From positions 1 to 33,177 of the forward strand of contig JAUYAK010000015.1 in assembly GCA_030693515.1 (NCBI GenBank): DNA of 33,177 nucleotides, given 5' to 3'. Each line of letters starts with the position of its first letter. The first letter of the stretch is position 1. This document shows positions 17,597 through 33,177 of this stretch, in pieces. The translations under genes and the position numbers were made by a program. Below the pieces are notes generated by a model that had not been told where the DNA came from, did no database searches, and worked only from the letters and a program-made list of their open reading frames with translations. Source of the DNA: Opitutaceae bacterium (GTDB lineage: Bacteria > Verrucomicrobiota > Verrucomicrobiia > Opitutales > Opitutaceae).

Positions 17597-17604
17597 GGGA
17601 GGAA

Positions 17605-17680
17605 AGTAGGGCGGGTCTGTGACCCGCCCGTTCACGCCTTGAGTGTTCGCACCGAGTGCGGGTCACAGACCCGCCCTACT
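17605..17680. repeat. REPIN-like inverted doublet, copy 1
   Basis: Left unit 17605-17629 and right unit 17658-17680 are inverted copies; each is itself nearly palindromic (GGCGGGTCTGTGACCCGCC). The right unit lacks perfect pairing at its two inner bases. The element fills the gap between arsC and the aquaporin gene, and its TAGGGCGGG end supplies the TAG stop of arsC (17676-17678). A second copy of the same family is at 25072-25171. Confidence 0.88.
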
Positions 17681-18119
17681 TTTTCAGCGCATCGCGCCGC
17701 CCATCGGCGTAGGCCCCGAACACCGCCTTGATCTCGTCGCGCACCCGGCGGAAGACCGCCATCTGCTCCTCCTCCGTGCCGGTCGCGTGCGCCGGATCCT
17801 CGAAGGGCCAGTGGTGGCGGTTGACCTGCCCGGGATAGACCGGGCACGCCTGGTCGGCGTTGCCGCACACGGTGATGACGGTCTCGATTTTTAGCCCGAG
17901 GAAATCGTTCATGTGCTTCGAGCGGTGCGAGGAAATGTCGAGGCCAACCTCGGCCATCGCGCGGACGGCGAGCGGATGGACGTAGCCGGCGGGCTTGGAG
18001 CCCGCGCTCTGCACGTCGAACAGGTCACCCGCCGCCGCGCGCAGCAGACCCTCGGCGAGGTGGCTGCGGCAGGAGTTGCCGGTGCAGAGGATGAGGACAG
18101 TGGGTTTGGGTTGGGACAT
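17676..18119 (-). CDS. arsC: Arsenate reductase, thioredoxin-coupled (low-molecular-weight phosphatase fold)
   Basis: Protein of 147 residues. The phosphatase-type anion loop CTGNSCRS gives C12 as nucleophile and R18; a second Cys pair, C85 and C92 in [11 protein letters not shown], matches the disulfide relay Cys82/Cys89 of Staphylococcus ArsC; and D108 in FEDPA is the expected general acid. The three-cysteine set separates it from ordinary low-molecular-weight tyrosine phosphatases. It would reduce arsenate to arsenite in the cytoplasm using thioredoxin. The aquaglyceroporin gene downstream offers an exit route. No arsR, arsB or acr3 is visible in the window, so regulation is unknown. The stop codon TAG is supplied by the REPIN repeat, so the last residues (DALKK) may have been trimmed by its insertion. 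Confidence 0.92.
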
Positions 18120-21294: not shown

Positions 21295-22053
21295 ATGAAA
21301 TCATCCCCCTCCTCCTCCCGCCCCTTCGCGCGCAGCGTGATTTTGTCCACTGCAACCGTTGCGTTCCTGCTGGCTGGCTTCGCCAGCCGTGCCGCCGATT
21401 CCACCCCGCCCCGTCCCGCCGCGCCGGCCGACACCTCCCGCCTCGCGCCGCCCTACCCCGGCTGCGTGCGGGTTTTCAACGGCCAGGATTTCACCGGCTG
21501 GGTCGCCGACGCCTCGACGTGGAGCATCGTCGATGGCGCCATGCGCGGCGTGGCCGGCACCTCGCGGCTCGCCTACACCCGGGCCGACTACGGCAGCTTC
21601 CGCCTCATCTTCACCGCACGCATGAATCCCGTGAACGGTGATCACCTCGGCGTCCTCTTCTGGGGCGACCGCCCGGCCGATCCCGCCAAACCCAAGATCG
21701 ATCTCGCCGGTTGGATCCAGTTCATGCCGCCGCACGGCTCGATGTGGAGCTACCATCCGCCCAAACACCACAGCCTCCCGCACGAGAAGCTCGTGCCCGG
21801 CTCGCGGGATTTCACGCGCTGGTCCGTGACCGAGCTGCTCTGCAACCTGGAGAAAGGCACGATGCGCGCCGCCGTCGATGGCGTCGAAATCGTGCGCTAC
21901 ACCCATCCCCACGCGAGCGAGCGCACCGACCCGGAGAAGCGAATCGTCGCCGGCACCATCGGGATGTTCCGCCACGGCGCCGGCGCCTCCGAATACAAAG
22001 ACATCTACATCGAGGCGAATCCCAAGGAGGACAAGTTGATTACGGTGCGGTAG
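21295..22053 (+). CDS. Exported DUF1080 (3-keto-disaccharide hydrolase-like) protein
   Basis: Exported protein of 252 residues. After a signal peptide (about 1-34, VAFLLAGFASRAA) and a Pro-rich linker, the rest is a single DUF1080/PF06439 concanavalin-like beta-sandwich. It is recognised from CVRVFNGQDFTGW, WSIVDGAMRGVAG, YGSFRLIFTARM, VLFWGDRPADP, TRWSVTELLCNLEKGTM and the closing GTIGMFRHGAGASEYKDIYIE. Such proteins are abundant in Verrucomicrobia and Planctomycetes, act on or bind glycans, and some hydrolyse 3-keto-glycosides. The ATG at 21295 (MKSSPSSSRPFARSV) is preferred over an upstream frame that runs antisense through the pectate-lyase gene. It is transcribed divergently from that gene. 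The region just after its stop drops in GC content. Confidence 0.88.
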   Translation: MKSSPSSSRPFARSVILSTATVAFLLAGFASRAADSTPPRPAAPADTSRLAPPYPGCVRVFNGQDFTGWVADASTWSIVDGAMRGVAGTSRLAYTRADYGSFRLIFTARMNPVNGDHLGVLFWGDRPADPAKPKIDLAGWIQFMPPHGSMWSYHPPKHHSLPHEKLVPGSRDFTRWSVTELLCNLEKGTMRAAVDGVEIVRYTHPHASERTDPEKRIVAGTIGMFRHGAGASEYKDIYIEANPKEDKLITVR

Positions 22054-22201
22054 GAAACGATTGCTCGCTGTTGCTTTAGCAGGAGCGATCCCGGATGGGA
22101 CTTTGCGCATCTTCACTAACCACAATCAAATCGGCTTGAGCCGCAAACCCGCGCTCCCAAGTTAGCCAACCAAGATGAGCAACGCGAAGTTCGTCACTAC
22201 C
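22054..22201. other. Lower-GC non-coding stretch before the cassette
   Basis: After the DUF1080 stop, G+C falls visibly. The segment includes TTGAGCCGC followed by AAACCC (about 22135), a motif repeated as TTGAGCCGC and GAACCC at about 22543 on the other side of the insert. No gene is seen. It may be part of the same inserted DNA, perhaps a recombination site of the upstream side. Confidence 0.4.
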
Positions 22202-22537
22202 TGTTAGGTGTCAGGTGTCATCGTGAGCGCCACCACATCCATCACTTGGGAGCAGCGGATGTTGCCACACTTGGAGGGTCTTGCCGCCAAGATGGTCAGG
22301 AGTCGGCACTTTGGCTACCTGAAGACTGTCGCAGATCTACTGGTTGGATTGAGCGGCCCGGGATGGAGTCGCCTCGCCGACGAGGACAGGATGCGCTACT
22401 TGGAGCAGATGCAGATTGATTTTCATCCGCGAGGGATGGGTGATTCCGAGTATGGTTCAGACCCTGACTACTCAGCCGTTTGTGACCTGATTGATTTAGA
22501 GGTTCGAGCAGTGAGACGACGACTATGACACCTAACA
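22202..22537. mobile_element. Cassette-like insert with perfect 12-bp inverted ends
   Basis: TGTTAGGTGTCA at 22202-22213 and TGACACCTAACA at 22526-22537 are exact reverse complements. They bracket one small ORF. GTTAGGT fits the integron attC core GTTRRRY and ACCTAAC fits RYYYAAC, and their order around an ORF is what a gene cassette would show. Base composition is lower in G+C than the neighbours. No integrase gene is in the window, and I could not fold a full attC site, so this may instead be another kind of small element. Confidence 0.5.
22223..22528 (+). CDS. Small hypothetical protein inside the cassette-like insert
   Basis: Short ORF of 101 residues from GTG 22223 (an earlier in-frame GTG at 22208 would give 106 and lies in the left inverted repeat). 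I do not recognise the protein. It is soluble and has mixed charge: SITWEQRMLPHLEGLAAKMV, a helical DLLVGLSGPGWSRLADEDRM segment and an acidic DFHPRGMGDSEYGSDPDYSA, ending in RAVRRRL. There is no signal peptide or membrane segment. Codon use (AAG, TTG, GAT, TCA, CGA mixed) is less GC-biased than in neighbours, which supports recent acquisition. Its TGA stop lies in the right inverted repeat, as in many integron cassette genes. Being a complete ORF in a bounded element supports it as a real gene, but expression is unproven. Confidence 0.55.
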   Translation: MSATTSITWEQRMLPHLEGLAAKMVRSRHFGYLKTVADLLVGLSGPGWSRLADEDRMRYLEQMQIDFHPRGMGDSEYGSDPDYSAVCDLIDLEVRAVRRRL

Positions 22538-25071: not shown

Positions 25072-25171
25072 AGTAGGGCGGGTCTGTGACCCGCCCTTTC
25101 GCGCTGCACGCCTTCGCCCGAAAAAACGTCCACGCAGCCGCACCAAGGGCGGGTCACAGACCCGCCCTACT
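25072..25171. repeat. REPIN-like inverted doublet, copy 2
   Basis: Units 25072-25096 and 25147-25171 are perfect 25-bp inverted copies, each nearly palindromic (GGCGGGTCTGTGACCCGCC), 50 bases apart. They match copy 1 at 17605-17680, including the flanking ACTTTTT after the right unit. The right unit plus T5 (25171-25175) would also work as an intrinsic terminator on the plus strand. No RAYT transposase is in the window. Confidence 0.92.
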
Positions 25172-25178
25172 TTTTCCC

Positions 25179-27122
25179 ATGCGCCCTCTCGTAACGTTTC
25201 TCGCCGTCGTCACGTTCGTCTCGCTCGCCCTCGCGCAGACCCCGCCAGCGCCGCCGCCACCCAAGCGCATCCCGATTCCGGGTATTACCCTCACCACCGC
25301 GGAGCGCGCCGAGCTCACCGCCGGCGCCGCCGCCCTGGGCCGCGAAATCACCGCGCTCAGCGCCGAACTCGCCGGCAACCCCAAGCTCGCCGCGCTCGTG
25401 CCCGACGTGGCGGTCCTGCACAAGGCCGTCGATTGGGCGCTGCACTACGATGAATTCATGGCGCCGAAGGAAATCGCGTTTGCCCGGCGCACGCTGGACC
25501 TCGGCCGCGAGCGCGCCGCGCAACTCCGCAGCGGCACCGCGCCGTGGCTTGATGCCAACGGACTGATCCTGCGCGGCCACCGCTCCGCGCTCGACGGCTC
25601 CGTGCAGCCCTATGGCCTCGTCGTGCCCGAGTCGCTCAAGGGCGCGACGCGCGAGCTGCCGCTCATGGTCTGGCTCCTCGGCCGCGGCGAGAAGCGCACC
25701 GAACTCGCCTTCCTCGCCGAGCGCGACGCCGGCCCGCCGCAGCTCACGCCCAAGGACACGATCACGGTCGTGCCCTACGGCCGCTTCTGCAACGCCACCA
25801 AGTTTGCCGGCGAGGTCGATGTCTTCGAGGCGCTCGCCGCCGTGCGCGCGCAGTATCGCGTCGACGAGAACCGCATCGCCGTCGGCGGCTTCTCGATGGG
25901 CGGCGGCAGCGCCTGGCACCTCGCCACGCACTACTCCGGCCTCTGGTGCGCCGCGACGCCCGGCGCGGGTTTCGCCGAGACGCCCATTTTCACCAAGGCT
26001 CTTTCGCCTAACCGCGAGCCGCGTGCGTCGTGGGAGCAGTTGCTTTGGCGCCAATACGAGGCCACCGGCATCGCGGGCAACCTCTTCAATCTCCCCACGC
26101 TCGCCTACACCGGCGAAAACGACGGCCAGAAGGAAGCCTCCGATCTCATGGAGGCCGCCATGGCCAAGGAGGGCCTGAAGCTCGAGCGCTTCATCGGCCC
26201 GCAGACCGCGCACAAATACCACGACGAAACCAAGGCCGCGCTCACCCGCCGCCTCGAGCAACTCATCGCCAAGGGCCGAGATCCCAAGCCGCGCGAGGTT
26301 TGGTTGCAGACCTACACGCTCCGCTACCCTGACGGCCCCGGCGTGCGCATCGAGGGCATGGGCCGCCACTGGGAACTCGCCGAAGTCCGCGCCACCCTGC
26401 ACGACAGCAACCACATCGCCGCGCACACCAAAAACGTGGAGGCGATCTCTTTCCCCGGCCGCGCCGCCAGCACCGTCATGCTCGACGGCCAGGAGCTGCG
26501 CCCCGCCGGCGGTGAGCTGCAATTTCACCGCGAGGGCGACGCGTGGAAACCCGGCCCCGCCCCCGGCCTCCGCAAACGCCCCGGCCTCACTGGGCCGGTG
26601 GACGATGCGTTCATGGCGCCGTTTCTCTTCGTGCGCCCGAGTGGCAAGCCGTTGAGCCCCGAGGTCGGCGCGTGGGTCGAGTCCGAACTCACCGCCGCGC
26701 GCAACCTCTGGCGCGATGTCTTTCGCGGCGAGGCCCGCATCGTCGCCGACCGCGCCGTGAGCGAAGCCGACATCGCCAACCACAACCTCATCCTCTGGGG
26801 CGACCCGTCGTCCAACGCCGTCCTCGCCCGGATCGTCGCGCAGCTCCCCGTGCAGTGGGACGCCAAGGCTCTCGTCTTCCGCGGCCGCACCTACGAAGCG
26901 AAGCACCACGCGCCGATCCTCGTGTTTCCCAATCCGCTCAACCCCGCGCGCTACGTCGTCCTCAACAGCGGCATCACCTTCCGCACCGAAGGCTACGGCA
27001 ACAACGCTCACCAAACGCCCAAGCTCCCCGACTGGGCCATCGTCGATCTCCGCACGCCCCCCGGCCCCCGCTGGCCCGGCAAGATCATCGACGCGGGCTT
27101 CTTCGACGAACAGTGGAGGTAA
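25179..27122 (+). CDS. Exported alpha/beta hydrolase (prolyl oligopeptidase-like)
   Basis: Exported protein of 647 residues. A signal peptide (1-19) and Pro-rich stretch are followed by a helical region (about 40-125), then an alpha/beta-hydrolase domain (about 140-380): QPYGLVVPESL, LPLMVWLLGRGEKRTEL, nucleophile elbow GGFSMGGG (S239), D315 in TGENDGQ and H345 in QTAHKYH. A C-terminal region (about 390-647) with an HWELAEVRATL strand set and a second beta/alpha segment is common in planctomycete/verrucomicrobial peptidase-like hydrolases. It might be a peptidase or a carbohydrate esterase; the sequence does not decide. The ATG at 25179 lies 8 bases after the right REPIN unit, so the repeat forms its leader and no usual ribosome-binding site is visible. 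The open frame continues upstream through the repeat but is unlikely. Confidence 0.85.
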   Translation: MRPLVTFLAVVTFVSLALAQTPPAPPPPKRIPIPGITLTTAERAELTAGAAALGREITALSAELAGNPKLAALVPDVAVLHKAVDWALHYDEFMAPKEIAFARRTLDLGRERAAQLRSGTAPWLDANGLILRGHRSALDGSVQPYGLVVPESLKGATRELPLMVWLLGRGEKRTELAFLAERDAGPPQLTPKDTITVVPYGRFCNATKFAGEVDVFEALAAVRAQYRVDENRIAVGGFSMGGGSAWHLATHYSGLWCAATPGAGFAETPIFTKALSPNREPRASWEQLLWRQYEATGIAGNLFNLPTLAYTGENDGQKEASDLMEAAMAKEGLKLERFIGPQTAHKYHDETKAALTRRLEQLIAKGRDPKPREVWLQTYTLRYPDGPGVRIEGMGRHWELAEVRATLHDSNHIAAHTKNVEAISFPGRAASTVMLDGQELRPAGGELQFHREGDAWKPGPAPGLRKRPGLTGPVDDAFMAPFLFVRPSGKPLSPEVGAWVESELTAARNLWRDVFRGEARIVADRAVSEADIANHNLILWGDPSSNAVLARIVAQLPVQWDAKALVFRGRTYEAKHHAPILVFPNPLNPARYVVLNSGITFRTEGYGNNAHQTPKLPDWAIVDLRTPPGPRWPGKIIDAGFFDEQWR

Positions 27123-27133
27123 ACAAATCCTCG

Positions 27134-27214
27134 CCACCGAGAACACCGAGTTCCAATCCGAGGACACACAGACTTGCTCCGTGAACTCCGGGTCTCCTCA
27201 GTGACCGCTGTGGC
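27134..27214. repeat. Degenerate inverted repeat before the NHL gene
   Basis: GCCACCGAGAACACCGAG (27134-27151) and the complement of CCTCAGTGACCGCTGTGGC (27196-27214) match at about 13 of 19 positions. It looks like a decayed relative of a GCCACAGAGAACACAGAG-type repeat. Support is moderate only. Confidence 0.4.
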
Positions 27215-27242
27215 TGGCCCGGGAACTATGCGAATACATCCC

Positions 27243-28313
27243 ATGCGCTTCTTTCTCATCCTCGCCTTGCTCAACTCCGCCTTGATCGCTTCCGCCGCCA
27301 CGACCCGCAGTGTCGCCGGCACCGGCGCGCGCGGCTTCTCCGGCGATGGCGGCCCCGCCACCGCCGCCCAGCTCAACGATCCCTTCGGCGTCGTGCGCGG
27401 ACCCGATGGCGCGCTGTGGTTCTGCGAATATGGCGGCCAGCGCGTGCGCCGCATCGCGGCCGACGGCACAATCTCCACCGTCGTCGGCACCGGCGCCAAG
27501 GGCCACACGGGCGACGGCGGCCCCGCCCTCGCCGCCACGCTCAACCTCCCGCACGAGATCCGTTTCGATCGCGCGGGAAATCTCTTCATCGTGGACATGA
27601 TGAACCACGCCGTGCGCCGCGTGGACGCGAAGACCAAGCTCATCACCACCATCGCCGGCACCGGCCAGCCCGGCTACGCTGGCGACGGCGGCCCCGCCAC
27701 CGCCGCCCAGCTCAATCAGCCCCACAGCATCCAGTTCGACCCCAAGGGCGATCTCTACATCTGCGACATCCGGAACCACGTGATCCGCAAAATCGACCTG
27801 TCGACCGGCTTCATCTCGACCTTCGCCGGCACCGGCAAACCCGGCGACACGCCCGATGGCGCGCCCATCGCCGGCACGCCGTTGCGCGGACCGCGCTCGC
27901 TCGACTTCGATGCGCGCGGCGATCTCTGGCTCGCGACGCGCGAGGGCAACCAGGTCTTCCGCTTCGATCTCGCCGCGGGCAAAATCCACCACGTCGCCGG
28001 CACCGGGAAAAAGGGCTACACCGGCGACGGCGGCCCCGCGCTCGCCGCCACGCTCAACGGCCCGAAAGGGATCACCATCGGCCGCGACGGCCGCGTCTAT
28101 CTCGTCGACACCGAAAACCACGCCATCCGCGTCGTCCATCCGGCCACCGGCCTGATGTCCACGCTCGTCGGCCACGGCGCCAAGGCCGACGGCCCCGACG
28201 GCGACAACCCGCTCGCCTGCGGCCTGGCCCGCCCCCACGGCATCTGGATCGATCCCGACGGCACCGTCTTTATCGGCGACTCCGAAAACCACCGCATCCG
28301 CGCGGTGAAGTAG
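27243..28313 (+). CDS. Exported NHL-repeat (six-bladed beta-propeller) protein
   Basis: Exported protein of 356 residues. A signal peptide (MRFFLILALLNSALIASAA) is followed by about six NHL repeats. Repeats carry the marks SVAGTGARGFSGDGGPATAA, LNDPFGVVRGPDGALWFCEY, GNLFIVDMMNHAVRRVD, GDLYICDIRNHVIRKID, GRVYLVDTENHAIRVVH and GTVFIGDSENHRIRAV, one per blade, giving a propeller. NHL propellers mediate binding and, in some enzymes, catalysis; no active site is visible. ATG 27228 is an alternative start with 5 more residues; 27243 gives the simpler signal peptide. The dihydropyrimidinase gene starts 12 bases downstream, which suggests one transcript, though a propeller protein has no known role in pyrimidine breakdown. 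Confidence 0.87.
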   Translation: MRFFLILALLNSALIASAATTRSVAGTGARGFSGDGGPATAAQLNDPFGVVRGPDGALWFCEYGGQRVRRIAADGTISTVVGTGAKGHTGDGGPALAATLNLPHEIRFDRAGNLFIVDMMNHAVRRVDAKTKLITTIAGTGQPGYAGDGGPATAAQLNQPHSIQFDPKGDLYICDIRNHVIRKIDLSTGFISTFAGTGKPGDTPDGAPIAGTPLRGPRSLDFDARGDLWLATREGNQVFRFDLAAGKIHHVAGTGKKGYTGDGGPALAATLNGPKGITIGRDGRVYLVDTENHAIRVVHPATGLMSTLVGHGAKADGPDGDNPLACGLARPHGIWIDPDGTVFIGDSENHRIRAVK

Positions 28314-28325
28314 CCTCCACCTCCC

Positions 28326-29708
28326 ATGAGCCTCCTGATCAAAAACGGCGAGATCATCACCGCCGACTCGCGCTACGTCGCGGACATCTACTGCGAAGGC
28401 GAAACCATCACACGCATCGACCACGGCCTCGTTGCGCCCGCCGGTTGCGAAGTCATCGACGCCACGGGCAAATACGTCTTCCCCGGCTTCATCGATCCGC
28501 ATGTCCACATCTACCTGCCCTTCATGGGCACGTTTTCCAAGGATACCTACGTGACCGGTTCGCAGGCCGCGCTCGTCGGCGGCACGACCACGCTCATCGA
28601 GATGTGCTGCCCCGGGCGGAAGGACGATGCGCTCGCGTCGTTCGAACTCTGGATGGCGCAGGCCGCAGGCAAGAGCGCCTGCGATTTTTCGTTCCACATG
28701 GGCGTCACTAAATTCGACGCCACCACCGAGGCCCAGCTCCGCGAGATCGTCCGCCGCGGCATCGCGTCCTTCAAAATCTTCCTCGCCTACAAAGGGGCCT
28801 TCGGGATCGACGACACGGAGCTCTACCAGACCCTCAAGCTCGCCAAGGAACTCGGCGTCGTCGTCACTGCGCACTGCGAAAACGAGACGCTCGTCGCCGA
28901 GCGCTGCAAGGAACTCCTCGCCGCCGGCAAAACCGATCCCGCGCAGCACCACGAGAGCCGCCCGCCCGCCGTCGAGGCCGAGGGCGTGCATCACCTGATG
29001 ACGTTTGCCGAGTTGACCGGCGCCGCGACCTACATCGTCCACCTCTCGTGCCAGGAGGCCCTCGATCAAGCCATCGCTGCCCGCCAGCGCGGCGTGCGCG
29101 TCGGCATCGAGACCCTCATCCAATACCTCACGCTCGACAAAACCTACGCGGAAAAGCCGAACTTCGAGGGCGCCAAATATGTGATGTCGCCGCCGCTCCG
29201 CGATGCGCGCAACCAGAGCGTGCTGTGGAATGGCCTGCGCGACGGCCTCATCAACACCGTCGCCACGGACCACGCGCCCTTCGATTTCGAAAAACAAAAA
29301 CCGATGGGCCGGGATGATTTCACGAAGATCCCCAACGGCATCCCGTCGCTCGAGGAGCGCGTGAACCTGCTCTACACCCACGGCGTCGCGCGCGGCCGCA
29401 TCGACCTGCACACCTTCGTGAATGTCGCCAGCACCGCCGTCGCCAAGCAGTTCGATCTCTTCCCGCGCAAAGGCGCGATCCAACCCGGCGCCGACGCCGA
29501 CCTTGTGGTGTTTGATCCCAACTACCGCGGCACGATTTCTGCGAAGACCCAGCACATGAATGTCGATTACAGCGCCTTTGAAGGCTGGCCGCTGGAGGGC
29601 CGGGCGAGCGTCGTAACCGTCCGAGGCCAAGTCGCAGCCCGCGACGGCAAGTTCACCGGCACCCTCGGTCGCGGAAAATTCCTCCAACGCAAGCCCAGTA
29701 GCTTTTGA
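28326..29708 (+). CDS. hydA: Dihydropyrimidinase / D-hydantoinase
   Basis: Metal-dependent amidohydrolase of 460 residues, the usual length. The binuclear metal site is complete: H59 and H61 (DPHVH), carboxylated Lys K150 (SFKIFLAYKG), H183 (TAHCEN), H239 (YIVHLS) and D315 (ATDHAPF). Y155 matches the Tyr that stabilises the intermediate in D-hydantoinases. The enzyme opens dihydrouracil/dihydrothymine (or hydantoins) to N-carbamoyl-beta-amino acids, the second step of the reductive pyrimidine pathway. The neighbouring NCS1 transporter and class III aminotransferase fit uptake of the base and use of beta-alanine. Dihydropyrimidine dehydrogenase and beta-ureidopropionase are not seen and may lie beyond the right edge. 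The TGA stop overlaps the first base of an ATCCGTG-type repeat. Cytoplasmic. Confidence 0.95.
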   Translation: MSLLIKNGEIITADSRYVADIYCEGETITRIDHGLVAPAGCEVIDATGKYVFPGFIDPHVHIYLPFMGTFSKDTYVTGSQAALVGGTTTLIEMCCPGRKDDALASFELWMAQAAGKSACDFSFHMGVTKFDATTEAQLREIVRRGIASFKIFLAYKGAFGIDDTELYQTLKLAKELGVVVTAHCENETLVAERCKELLAAGKTDPAQHHESRPPAVEAEGVHHLMTFAELTGAATYIVHLSCQEALDQAIAARQRGVRVGIETLIQYLTLDKTYAEKPNFEGAKYVMSPPLRDARNQSVLWNGLRDGLINTVATDHAPFDFEKQKPMGRDDFTKIPNGIPSLEERVNLLYTHGVARGRIDLHTFVNVASTAVAKQFDLFPRKGAIQPGADADLVVFDPNYRGTISAKTQHMNVDYSAFEGWPLEGRASVVTVRGQVAARDGKFTGTLGRGKFLQRKPSSF

Positions 29709-29784
29709 CCACAGATAGCACCGATGAACACGGATAAAACCGCTGTCTTCATCCGTGATAATCCGTGAAATCCGTGGTTAAAAG
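29708..29784. repeat. ATCCGTG-type inverted repeat, copy A
   Basis: Left arm 29708-29735 and right arm 29751-29778 are 28-base inverted copies (22 of 28 match) around a 15-base loop, followed by TTAAAA. The right arm carries ATCCGTG three times at offsets 0, 10 and 19, close to one helical turn apart. It fills the gap between hydA and the GxxExxY gene and starts within the hydA stop codon. Confidence 0.9.
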
Positions 29785-29808
29785 TTCCGGGCTCTCCTTC
29801 ACGTTCCC

Positions 29809-30186
29809 ATGAGTTCCGACCATCTAATCCACTCAGAACTGAGCCACGCGATCATCGGTGCCGCCATGCAGGTGCTCAACACCCTGAAACCCGGTTTGAG
29901 CGAGAAAGCCTACGAAAACACCCTCGTCATCGAACTGAGGAAACGTGGCCACCGCGTCGAACAACAGAAGCGCTTCGACGTGCGCTACGACGGGCAGGTC
30001 GTCGACACCCTCGTGCCCGACCTGATCGTCGATGATTCGGTCATTGCCGATCCCAAAGTGACCGAGGATTTCACTCCGACCCATCAAGCCCAGATGATTG
30101 GCTACCTCACCATCACTCAGCTGCGGCTTGCCCTCCTCCTGAACTTCAAGCACGCCGACCTGCGTTGGAAACGCGTAGTCCGCTGA
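29809..30186 (+). CDS. GxxExxY family protein (PDDEXK_3 nuclease-like)
   Basis: Small protein of 125 residues of the GxxExxY family (PF13366-like). The naming motif is G29-L30-S31-E32-K33-A34-Y35, in KPGLSEKAYENTLVIELRKR. The nuclease-type core follows: D71 in VPDLIVDD, then an acidic-x-Lys pair D81-P82-K83 (VIADPKV), then THQAQMIGYLTITQLRLALLLNF. In most relatives I recall, the pair is E-x-K (VELK), so D81 and P82 are unusual; catalytic ability is uncertain. Function of the family is not established. The gene is bounded by ATCCGTG-type repeats on both sides (ending 25 bases before the ATG and beginning 5 bases after the stop) and interrupts a pyrimidine catabolism cluster, which suggests that gene and repeats came together. 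Confidence 0.88.
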   Translation: MSSDHLIHSELSHAIIGAAMQVLNTLKPGLSEKAYENTLVIELRKRGHRVEQQKRFDVRYDGQVVDTLVPDLIVDDSVIADPKVTEDFTPTHQAQMIGYLTITQLRLALLLNFKHADLRWKRVVR

Positions 30187-30190
30187 CTGC

Positions 30191-30223
30191 ATCCGTGGAG
30201 ATCCGTGAAATTCGTGGTTAAAG
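30191..30223. repeat. ATCCGTG-type repeat, copy B (right-arm only)
   Basis: This single arm (ATCCGTGGAG, ATCCGTGAAA, TTCGTGGTTA and AAG in sequence) matches the right arms of copies A and C, same orientation, including the trailing GGTTAAA. No left arm is visible because the GxxExxY coding sequence precedes it. The proposed NCS1 start codon lies inside it. Confidence 0.85.
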
Positions 30224-31716
30224 AATCCTCCTCCGAGTTGATCGATTCCACTGCCGCCCTCGTCGGCGCGCGCGACTCGCGACTCTACAACGACGACCTG
30301 GCACCCGTGCCGCCTTCCGCGCGCAAGTGGGGGCTCGCGTCGTTTGCCGCGCTGTGGGTGTCGATGGCGGCGTGCATTCCCACCTACATGCTAGCCTCCG
30401 GCCTGATCGGCAGCGGCATGAATTGGTCGCAGGCCGTCTTCACGATCTTCCTCGGCAATGTGATCGTCGTGATTCCGATGATCCTCAACGCCCATGCCGG
30501 CACGCGCTACGGCATTCCGTTTCCCGTCTTCTGCCGCGCCTCGTTCGGCACGACCGGCGCCAACATCCCCGCGCTCCTGCGTGCGCTCGTCGCCTGCGGC
30601 TGGTTTGGCATCCAAACATGGATCGGCGGCGATGCGATTTTCAAAATCATCGGCGTCTTCGCCCCGGCCTTCACCGCCGGCACCCCGCTGCCGGTCCTCG
30701 ACATCACGCCGGCTCACTTCGCCTGCTTCCTTTTTTTCTGGGCGATCAACATGTGGGTCATCTGGCGTGGCATCGATACGATCCGCGTGCTGCTCAACCT
30801 CAAGGCCCCGCTGCTCATCGTCCTCGGCCTCGTGCTGCTGGCGTGGGCCTGGCAGGCCGCCGGTGGCTTCGGCCCGATTCTCTCGCAGCCCTCGGCCTTC
30901 GATGTCGGCCAGCCCAAGGCCGGGCAATTCTGGGCGGTGTTCTTCCCCTCGCTCACCGGCATGATCGGCTTTTGGGCGACCCTCTCGCTCAACATCCCCG
31001 ATTTTTCCCGCTACGCGAAATCCCAGCGCGACCAAGCCCTCGGCCAGGCGCTCGGCCTGCCGGCCACGATGGCGCTCTATTCGTTCATCGGCGTGGCGGT
31101 CACCAGCGCCACCACGATCATCTACGGCAAGACCCTCTGGGATCCCGTCGATGTGCTCACGCGTTTCACGAATCCCTTCGTGCTCGTCGGCGCGCTGTTC
31201 GCGCTCTGCCTCGCGACGCTCGCGACCAACATCGCCGCCAACGTCGTCTCGCCGGCCAATGATTTCGCGCAGCTCGCCCCGCAGAGAATCTCCTTCCGCC
31301 TCGGCGGGCTCATCACGGGCCTCATCGGCATCGTGATGATGCCGTGGAAACTCGTCGCCGATCCCAGCGGCTACATCTTCACGTGGCTCATCGGCTACAG
31401 CGCCCTGCTCGGCCCCATCGGCGGCATCATGATCGCGGACTATTTTGTTTACCGCAAAAGACACCTCAACGTGCCAGCGCTTTACTCCGCTGAAGGCGAG
31501 TATCGCTACGCCCGCGGCATCAGCTGGGTGGCGGTCAGCGCGTTTCTCGCGGGCGCGTTGCCCAGCCTGCCCGGCTTCCTCGCGCACGTCGGAGCAATCG
31601 CCGCCACGAGCGTGCCGTCGATCTTCCATTCGCTCTACAGCGTCGCCTGGCTCGCAGGCTTCGCGATCGCGTTCGTCGTCTACCTCGTTTTGCGCAAACT
31701 CGCACCGAACCATTGA
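30205..31716 (+). CDS. NCS1-family nucleobase/allantoin/hydantoin:cation symporter
   Basis: Membrane transporter of up to 503 residues with twelve helices. Family landmarks are SRLYNDDLAPVPPSARKWG before the first helix, NWSQAVFTIFLGNVIVVIPM, GTRYGIPFPVFCRASFGTTG and CGWFGIQTWIGGDAIFKIIG, then NIPDFSRYAKSQRDQALGQA and TNIAANVVSPANDFAQLAP. The Trp/Gln-rich third-helix segment matches the substrate site of Mhp1. NCS1 proteins import uracil, cytosine, allantoin or hydantoins with H+ or Na+; the hydA neighbour supports a pyrimidine or hydantoin. The start is unsure: GTG 30205 and GTG 30214 both lie inside repeat copy B, and TTG 30238 is a further option; GGAG at 30197-30200 could serve GTG 30205 but is close. 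The TGA stop overlaps the next repeat. Confidence 0.92.
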   Translation: MKFVVKESSSELIDSTAALVGARDSRLYNDDLAPVPPSARKWGLASFAALWVSMAACIPTYMLASGLIGSGMNWSQAVFTIFLGNVIVVIPMILNAHAGTRYGIPFPVFCRASFGTTGANIPALLRALVACGWFGIQTWIGGDAIFKIIGVFAPAFTAGTPLPVLDITPAHFACFLFFWAINMWVIWRGIDTIRVLLNLKAPLLIVLGLVLLAWAWQAAGGFGPILSQPSAFDVGQPKAGQFWAVFFPSLTGMIGFWATLSLNIPDFSRYAKSQRDQALGQALGLPATMALYSFIGVAVTSATTIIYGKTLWDPVDVLTRFTNPFVLVGALFALCLATLATNIAANVVSPANDFAQLAPQRISFRLGGLITGLIGIVMMPWKLVADPSGYIFTWLIGYSALLGPIGGIMIADYFVYRKRHLNVPALYSAEGEYRYARGISWVAVSAFLAGALPSLPGFLAHVGAIAATSVPSIFHSLYSVAWLAGFAIAFVVYLVLRKLAPNH

Positions 31717-31815
31717 CCACGGATCACACGGATAAACACGGATGCAACCATCGGCTCTGTTTCCCTTTCCTTCCCTGCCTTTATCCGTGTTTATCCGTGA
31801 AATCCGTGGTTAAAA
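31716..31815. repeat. ATCCGTG-type inverted repeat, copy C
   Basis: Left arm 31716-31743 and right arm 31783-31810 are 28-base inverted copies with 26 of 28 matches, around a 39-base loop, followed by TTAAAA. It is the best-preserved copy. It starts at the last base of the NCS1 stop codon and ends 28 bases before the aminotransferase ATG. Confidence 0.94.
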
Positions 31816-31843
31816 ACACCGCCCTCTCCCGGCCTCCTCTCCC

Positions 31844-33177
31844 ATGAAATCCATCCCCCTCCCGCCCACCGCGCACCAGCCGTCGCCCTACGTGGGGCCC
31901 TCGCTCGAGCAGGTGCTCGCGCAGCGCAAGCAGTTCCTCAACCCCGGCCTCTTCCTCTACTACAAGCAGCCGATTATGATCGTGGAGGGGAAGATGCAGT
32001 ATGTCTGGGACTCCACCGGCAAACGCTACCTCGACGGCCTCGGCGGCATCGTGACCGTGAGCGTCGGCCACTGCCACCCGCACGTGCTCAAGGCCATCAA
32101 CGCCCAGAACGCCACGCTCCAGCACAGCACCACGATTTACCTCAACCCCAACATCGGCGCCTTCGCGGAGAAGCTGGCCTCCAAACTCCCCGGCGATCTC
32201 AAGGTCTGTTACTTCGTCAACTCCGGCTCCGAGGCCAACGACCTCGCGCTCCTCATGGCGCGCCTCTACACGGGCAACTACGATGCCATCGCCTTGCGCA
32301 ACGGCTACCACGGCGGCAGTCCCTCCTCGATGGGGCTGACCGCGCACAGCAACTGGAAATTCAACGTCCCGCACTCCTTCGGCGTCCACCACGCTGTCGC
32401 GCCCTATCCGTATCGCGGCCACTTTGGCTACGACGACCCCGACGCCGGCCGTAAATACGCCGACGACGTCAAGGACCTCATCGCCTACGCCACGCCCGGC
32501 AAGCTCGCCGCCTTCATCGCCGAATCGATCCAGGGCGTGGGCGGTTTCGTCGAGTTTCCGCAGGGTTATCTCAAGCACGCCTACGAACACGTGCGTGCCG
32601 CGGGCGGCGTGTGCATCGCCGACGAGGTGCAGACCGGCTTCGGCCGAACCGGCAGGCTGTTTGCAATGGACCACTATGCCGATCAGGGCATCACACCCGA
32701 CCTGATGACCATCGCTAAATCGCTAGCCGCCGGCCTGACGCTGTCAGCCGTCACCGGGCGCGCCGACATCATGGACGCCCCTGCGCCAGGCGGACTGGGC
32801 GGCACCTACGCTGGCAACCCGCTGGCTGTGGCCGCTGCCCAAGCAGTGATTGACATCATGCACGATGAACAGCTGCCCGCGCGGGGCCAGCAACTAGGCG
32901 ACCAGTTGCAACATCGGCTCAGCATCCTGCAGCACCGTGTGCCTCAACTGGCAGAGGTCAGGGGGCTGGGCGCGATGGTGGCTGCCGAATTCCGGAAGAC
33001 CGACGGCAGCCCCGATGCGCCATTTACCAAAGATGTACAAGCCAGGGCACTGGCGAAAGGGCTGATTTTGCTGACCTGCGGCATGGACGGAAACGTGCTT
33101 CGCTTCCTGTTTCCGCTGACCATCGAACAACCCGTGTTTGACGAGGCACTTGAGATCATGGAGGAGGCCCTTCTCAG
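31844..33177 (+). CDS. Class III PLP aminotransferase, 3'-truncated; probably chimeric (AGXT2-like then GabT-like)
   Basis: Open frame of 444 codons that runs off the right edge. Residues 1-260 resemble AGXT2-like (alanine-glyoxylate / beta-alanine-pyruvate) aminotransferases: MQYVWDSTGKRYLDGLGG, IVTVSVGHCHPHV, NSGSEANDLALLMARL and RNGYHGGSPSSMGLT. Cofactor Asp D260 is in ADEVQTGFGRTG. From about residue 271 the sequence is GabT-like (4-aminobutyrate aminotransferase): LFAMDHYADQG, PDLMTIAKSLAAGLTLS with catalytic K292, DAPAPGGLGGTYAGNPLAVA, EVRGLGAMVAAEF, KGLILLTCG and LRFLFPLTIEQPVFDEALEI. An AGXT2-like protein would be expected to continue with a different pattern. At the same point codon choice shifts to CGA, AGG, CTA, GCA, GCT and CAA and G+C falls. 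The first half fits the beta-alanine step of the pyrimidine pathway; the second half probably belongs to a betaproteobacterial gene joined in assembly. Confidence 0.85.
   Translation, partial: MKSIPLPPTAHQPSPYVGPSLEQVLAQRKQFLNPGLFLYYKQPIMIVEGKMQYVWDSTGKRYLDGLGGIVTVSVGHCHPHVLKAINAQNATLQHSTTIYLNPNIGAFAEKLASKLPGDLKVCYFVNSGSEANDLALLMARLYTGNYDAIALRNGYHGGSPSSMGLTAHSNWKFNVPHSFGVHHAVAPYPYRGHFGYDDPDAGRKYADDVKDLIAYATPGKLAAFIAESIQGVGGFVEFPQGYLKHAYEHVRAAGGVCIADEVQTGFGRTGRLFAMDHYADQGITPDLMTIAKSLAAGLTLSAVTGRADIMDAPAPGGLGGTYAGNPLAVAAAQAVIDIMHDEQLPARGQQLGDQLQHRLSILQHRVPQLAEVRGLGAMVAAEFRKTDGSPDAPFTKDVQARALAKGLILLTCGMDGNVLRFLFPLTIEQPVFDEALEIMEEALL

Follow-up and report, generated by a model that had tools for sequence, protein, structure and literature searches.

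An aminotransferase frame at a contig end of an Opitutaceae genome joins host and Comamonadaceae-like sequence and is very probably an assembly chimera

The aminotransferase frame that closes the stretch of DNA analysed here (33,177 nucleotides, the whole of contig C11 in a 6.65-Mb genome of 130 contigs, hereafter the window) consists of two parts of different origin, contig C11 being host sequence up to about position 32614 and foreign over its last ~0.53 kb. We infer, with very high confidence, that the assembler rather than the cell made this join, and regard the hybrid as an artefact and not as biology. The first-pass annotation had already called an assembly chimera likely, a judgement that is very probably right and to which the contig end and the synteny of a second contig of the same genome (C72) add evidence. 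The frame (31844-33175, + strand; 444 residues) remains open up to the right end of the contig and gives one near full-length match to Pfam Aminotran_3 (residues 43-443 of the hybrid), in agreement with the earlier observation that the frame is kept; the motifs that had been named within it are present. The coordinates of its parts are given in Table 1.

Table 1. Parts of the hybrid aminotransferase frame and the related stretch on contig C72 (window coordinates)
Feature	Position	Strand	Evidence
Host part: class-III aminotransferase (AGXT2-like / PRK06148-like, group A), N-terminal residues 1-257	31844..32614	+	95.5% to G018 (residues 1-267); 70/70 diagnostic residues of type A; downstream of the permease as in G018, G001, G003, G025 and G011
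Junction zone: conserved ADEVQTGFGRTG stretch	32615..32653	+	both parent kinds can be base-identical over part of it; diagnostic residues absent between 256 and 273
Foreign tail: Comamonadaceae-like GabT, C-terminal part, truncated by the contig end before the stop	32654..33177	+	84% (amino acids) to Curvibacter L010 and Polaromonas L014; 52/53 diagnostic residues of type B
Second copy of the stretch on the tip of contig C72, same genome	32014..32657	+	88% identical (565/644); first 45 bases identical

Compared separately, as the first-pass annotation had proposed, the two halves of the protein (cut at residue 267/268) lead to relatives of the host on the left and, as it had anticipated, to Burkholderiales on the right. 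The left half is closest to the host's own genus (G018; 95.5%, versus 29% for the right half) and to a further relative (G001; 92.5% versus 30%), and the right half shares 77-84% identity with the named Comamonadaceae, a family to which Curvibacter, Acidovorax, Polaromonas and Rhodoferax all belong according to the lineages we looked up. The identities of Curvibacter (L010), Acidovorax temperans (L012) and Polaromonas (L014) to the window are 84%, 82% and 84% in the right half versus 35%, 35% and 33% in the left. For the diagnostic residues and the trees, group A comprised 15 sequences (C72 plus the full-length copies of 14 relatives, the fragment of G013 being omitted) and group B another 15 (L010-L024, out of 80 loci, most of them titled Burkholderiales and some only 'Proteobacteria' or 'Gammaproteobacteria'). 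The two groups are separated by 123 alignment columns, none of which falls between residues 256 and 273. Up to residue 257 the window carries the group A residue at 70/70 of these columns, and from residue 271 it carries the group B residue at 52/53 (the remaining one is neither) and the group A residue at 0/53; the frame does not keep A residues over its full length and has different closest relatives on the two sides of one point. Maximum-likelihood trees of the two halves conflict: the left half places the window within group A, clustered with G018 and G001 (98/91) to the exclusion of C72, and the right half places it within group B, together with Polaromonas, Curvibacter, Acidovorax and L011 (99/91), with the branch that divides the groups at 100/100 in each tree.

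Profile and structure comparisons of the two halves also differ. The best NCBIfam profile HMMs are PRK06148/PRK06149 for the left half and GABA transaminases for the right half; among solved structures, the left half is nearest to an ethanolamine-phosphate phospho-lyase (6tor) and the right half to proteins named GABA aminotransferase or PuuE. We take the phospho-lyase to be the enzyme also called AGXT2L1, so that the earlier label 'AGXT2-like' is a fair one. PRK06148/PRK06149 are also the best models for the genes of G018 and C72; these scores, like that of the left half, fall below cut-offs that were set for longer proteins. The right half lies outside this family. The best match of the right half is to the GabT/PuuE models (TIGR00700, NF005692), but the whole protein does not pass their curated cut-offs and stays far below the equivalog thresholds (367.7 versus 724 and 358.2 versus 506.65 bits). 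The family switch that the first-pass annotation had read within the frame is thus borne out by the half-wise identities, the 123 diagnostic residues, the conflicting trees and the profile HMMs.

The exact runs of identity and the last left-type codon place the join within 32615-32653. That codon is TGC at 32612-32614, the codon at 32654-32656 (residue 271) is the first to fit the right side better, and residue 274 is the first that is fixed between the groups. Our base-level comparison (15 group A and 11 group B loci) shows that exact runs with the window extend to 32643-32646 in some group A genes, such as that of G014 (L096; 47 bases, 32597-32643), and start at 32615 in some group B genes, such as that of Aquincola (L018; 32 bases, 32615-32646). 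As these two runs overlap, the two genes have at least 29 nt in common (32615-32643), in line with the earlier proposal that the switch sits in a conserved stretch that can be identical across unrelated genomes; a join within sequence common to both parents is therefore documented on this pair, and the common length at the actual join is an estimate. In successive 30-nt blocks at the junction, the window matches G018 at 28/30, then at 14/30 and 7/30, and Curvibacter at 12/30, then at 28/30, 23/30 and 24/30. The contig ends 533 bases past position 32644, so that the foreign tail forms its final ~0.53 kb; no host DNA follows, and tail and contig stop together. The advice to exclude the sequence to the right of about 32,640 holds in principle, with its start corrected to 32615.

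The composition of the tail, which had been offered as a further sign of foreign origin, supports this in its codons and not in its overall G+C. The codons CGA, AGG, CTA and GCA together account for 11/177 in the right part versus 0/267 in the left part and 38/4302 in eight host ORFs with Pfam matches, one of which (25086-27119) is barely over the cut-off; CGA alone contributes 1/177 in the right part. The right part has a GC3 of 0.72, versus a minimum of 0.74 in 53 host stretches of equal length, and a fit to host codon use as poor as that of the tail is seen in 1/53 of these. At 62.5%, the right part has an overall G+C as low as is seen in ~9% of 643 equally long stretches of the window (mean 67.2%), so that G+C alone is not evidence. 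With a codon-fit score of -1.31, the tail resembles the host less than do the equivalent stretches of four group B genes (-0.70 to -1.13), which means that a Comamonadaceae origin by itself predicts no value so low.

The group A gene was searched for in 57 genomes, the window's own included, among the matches listed, in which weak matches are represented in part. A full-length copy is present in 14 of the 56 relatives (53-70% identity over the whole query) and is unmixed in all 14, with no second group A copy in these 14 among the matches listed; G013 has only a fragment of 198 residues. No hybrid gene appears among the matches listed in the 56 relatives. The window's own genome holds the group A gene region in two places, on C11 and on C72. 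The tip of C72 (L110; 9021-9664) matches window 32014-32657 at 565/644 positions, and its first 45 bases are those of window 32014-32058; being 88% alike and not identical, the two contigs are not a simple overlap. Past the window match, C72 continues with a group A C-terminus and is 90% identical to G018 over 8,363 columns. In G018 the locus lies on one contig, which window 20069-32657 matches in three main pieces and earlier window parts match further along. When a 19.9-kb stretch of G018 was compared with the window's genome, the main matches among the best 40 of 900 candidates were to C11 and C72; C48 matched at the far edge, and C38 gave weaker matches (73-74%) on the upstream side. Within the same 40, contigs other than C48 gave only repeat-like matches of <100 bases on the downstream side, and the remaining matches were short and nearly all repeat-like. 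Across eight relatives whose regions were compared, the permease match lies upstream in five (G018, G001, G003, G025 and G011), the C72 match lies downstream in seven (all except G003), and both are found in four (G018, G001, G025 and G011). No permease DNA match was seen in G029, G002 and G008, and no C72 DNA match beyond the gene in G003, so the gene order is not universal. The combination on C11 is thus absent among the matches listed in the relatives, and its true continuation is found elsewhere in the genome, on a contig whose overlap is 88% and not 100%.

The surroundings of the frame have features of their own. The region 28326-33175 holds, in a row, a dihydropyrimidinase (TIGR02033, over cut-off), an NCS1 nucleobase permease (TIGR00800, over cut-off) and the aminotransferase; the same row is recognizable by DNA match in G018, G001, G003, G025 and G011, and suggests a role in pyrimidine breakdown in which the aminotransferase would act on the beta-amino acid product. 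Between the dihydropyrimidinase and the permease lies a GxxExxY protein (29809-30183; TIGR04256, 129.7 bits versus a cut-off of 35); G+C is lower there (0.56-0.57 in 500-base steps), and the block 29801-30100 matches G018 and has no DNA match in G001, G003, G025 and G011. The lowest G+C of any 500-base step of the window is at 22001-22500 (0.54). Between the permease and the aminotransferase there is an inverted repeat (31713-31813; arms of 31 nt, 90% complementary), with related pieces at 29719-29783 and 30180-30222. It does not match a palindromic element that occurs in two copies in the window (17604-17681 and 25072-25172, with matches on both strands) and is related to G018 L109 15786-15860; the G018 element gives ~75-base matches on more than 20 contigs of the window's genome (among the best 40 of 900 candidates). 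The ORF at 27174-28313 contains direct repeats (27292-28108; spacing ~171 bases or 57 codons, 61-86% alike), which we would guess to be NHL-like beta-propeller repeats.

The first-pass annotation had named one finding that would overturn its reading, the presence of the same full-length gene in a close relative; this was sought and not found among the matches listed in the 56 relatives, in the 252 genomes of the family or in a class sample of 384 genomes. The right half is matched in 2/252 genomes of the family (E<=1e-30), namely its own and one at 45%, and in 5/384 genomes of the even class sample (E<=1e-40), namely its own and four at 47-53%, and a search of viral_contigs for exact copies of the 51-base junction gave 0 matches. 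The genomes of six named loci did not yield the donor, nucleotide identity reaching at most 79%, and nothing closer was found in an even sample of 399 genomes from the family of Acidovorax temperans, a coarse search with two candidates scored per genome among the matches listed, in which A. temperans alone (76%) is found at E<=1e-90. Matches on plasmids come from 271 records (ten of them listed, at 66.7-69.2%, and eight others in the 80-90% band) and those on phages are three partial ones. With the full Acidovorax GabT as query, the window's genome yields, besides C11, only places at 34-40% and no other piece of the donor gabT. Among 13 contig ends compared, one pair (C70 and C73) has 119 bases in common and no exact runs of at least 20 bases connect the other pairs; the contig ends therefore do not identify the assembler.

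Our data are best explained by a course of events in which the sequence up to about 32614 is host chromosome, carrying the dihydropyrimidinase, the NCS1 permease and the first 257 codons of the AGXT2-like class-III aminotransferase. The donor, a co-occurring Comamonadaceae-like bacterium, would have a gabT identical to the host gene over ~30-40 bases at the conserved ADEVQTGFGRTG stretch; there the assembly path would quit the host and follow gabT almost to its end, the contig stopping there. The host's own C-terminal half and downstream genes are those on C72. As members of one homologous family that align without gaps at the join, the two genes leave the frame intact. The source sample was presumably a metagenome.

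That an ordinary, unmixed aminotransferase has merely diverged in its C-terminal half would agree with both halves belonging to the same Pfam family and aligning over the whole model, but the half-wise identities, the diagnostic residues and the trees refute it; the change is abrupt in 30-nt blocks and the halves stand on opposite sides of the 100/100 branches, leaving this explanation practically no chance. A natural recombinant, in which Comamonadaceae-like DNA recombined with the host gene at the conserved stretch and left a real hybrid with a GabT C-terminal half in the permease-dihydropyrimidinase locus, is a very improbable alternative. It would account for the preserved frame and family match (Aminotran_3), since ~30 identical bases in common could also serve recombination in a cell, and the two versions of the group A region (C11 and C72) make a duplication with one converted copy conceivable. 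Such an event would, however, need to coincide with a contig end, as the tail stops with the contig and no host DNA lies beyond it; moreover, the 14 full-length copies of relatives are unmixed and without a second copy among the matches listed, the right half has a counterpart in only 1/251 other genomes of the family (the one at 45%), and the codon use of the tail is foreign to the host.

A variant that is compatible with the assembler chimera, and to which we assign a small probability, would start the chimera earlier: 32014-32614 would derive from a different strain of the host genus, the 45 bases in common with the tip of C72 being the point of joining, and C72 would be the host's true version. 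In its favour, the 45-base identity with C11 starts precisely at the end of C72, and 12% of 644 bases differ between the two versions. Against this, identity of the window to G018 (94% over 31844-32013 and 90% over 32059-32644) is in line with the upstream coding blocks, and it is C72 that is the outsider to the window, G018 and G001 in the left-half tree, whereas in the right-half tree C72 pairs with G018 (100/74). C72 is less similar to G018 in the left half (505/585) than in the right half (481/525; Fisher p 0.006), but the left-half identities of the window (525/585) and of C72 (505/585) to G018 differ at p 0.087 only, so that the case against the earlier start is weak. At the tip of C72 there may be a further mis-join involving a different strain of the genus, which is a hint and not a result.

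The assembler chimera on C11 has counterparts in the literature. Inter-species chimeric contigs that arise from shared k-mers have been described for metagenome assemblies (PMC7299287), and the chimeric sequences of one mock community were invariably located at contig ends (PMC8172020). To go by the portions of these two papers considered here, C11 is like such contigs in having its join in a common stretch, at a contig end, with a change of composition and nearest relatives, and is unlike them in its parents, since their chimeras mostly involve related species or strains and C11 combines distant ones, with 33-35% protein identity across most of the left half, one conserved motif being enough. 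As the chimera on C11 also keeps the reading frame, gene-calling programs would take it for a plausible enzyme. Ratings of 100% completeness and 1.1% contamination were given to the genome despite the chimera, which means that such figures do not reveal it. The hybrid ORF resembles an intact enzyme and could be annotated as one, or mistaken for transfer between distant bacteria. As an artefact the finding is a matter of data quality and of low biological interest; for work on the host, we recommend masking everything from 32615 to the contig end and turning to C72 for the C-terminal side of the host gene.
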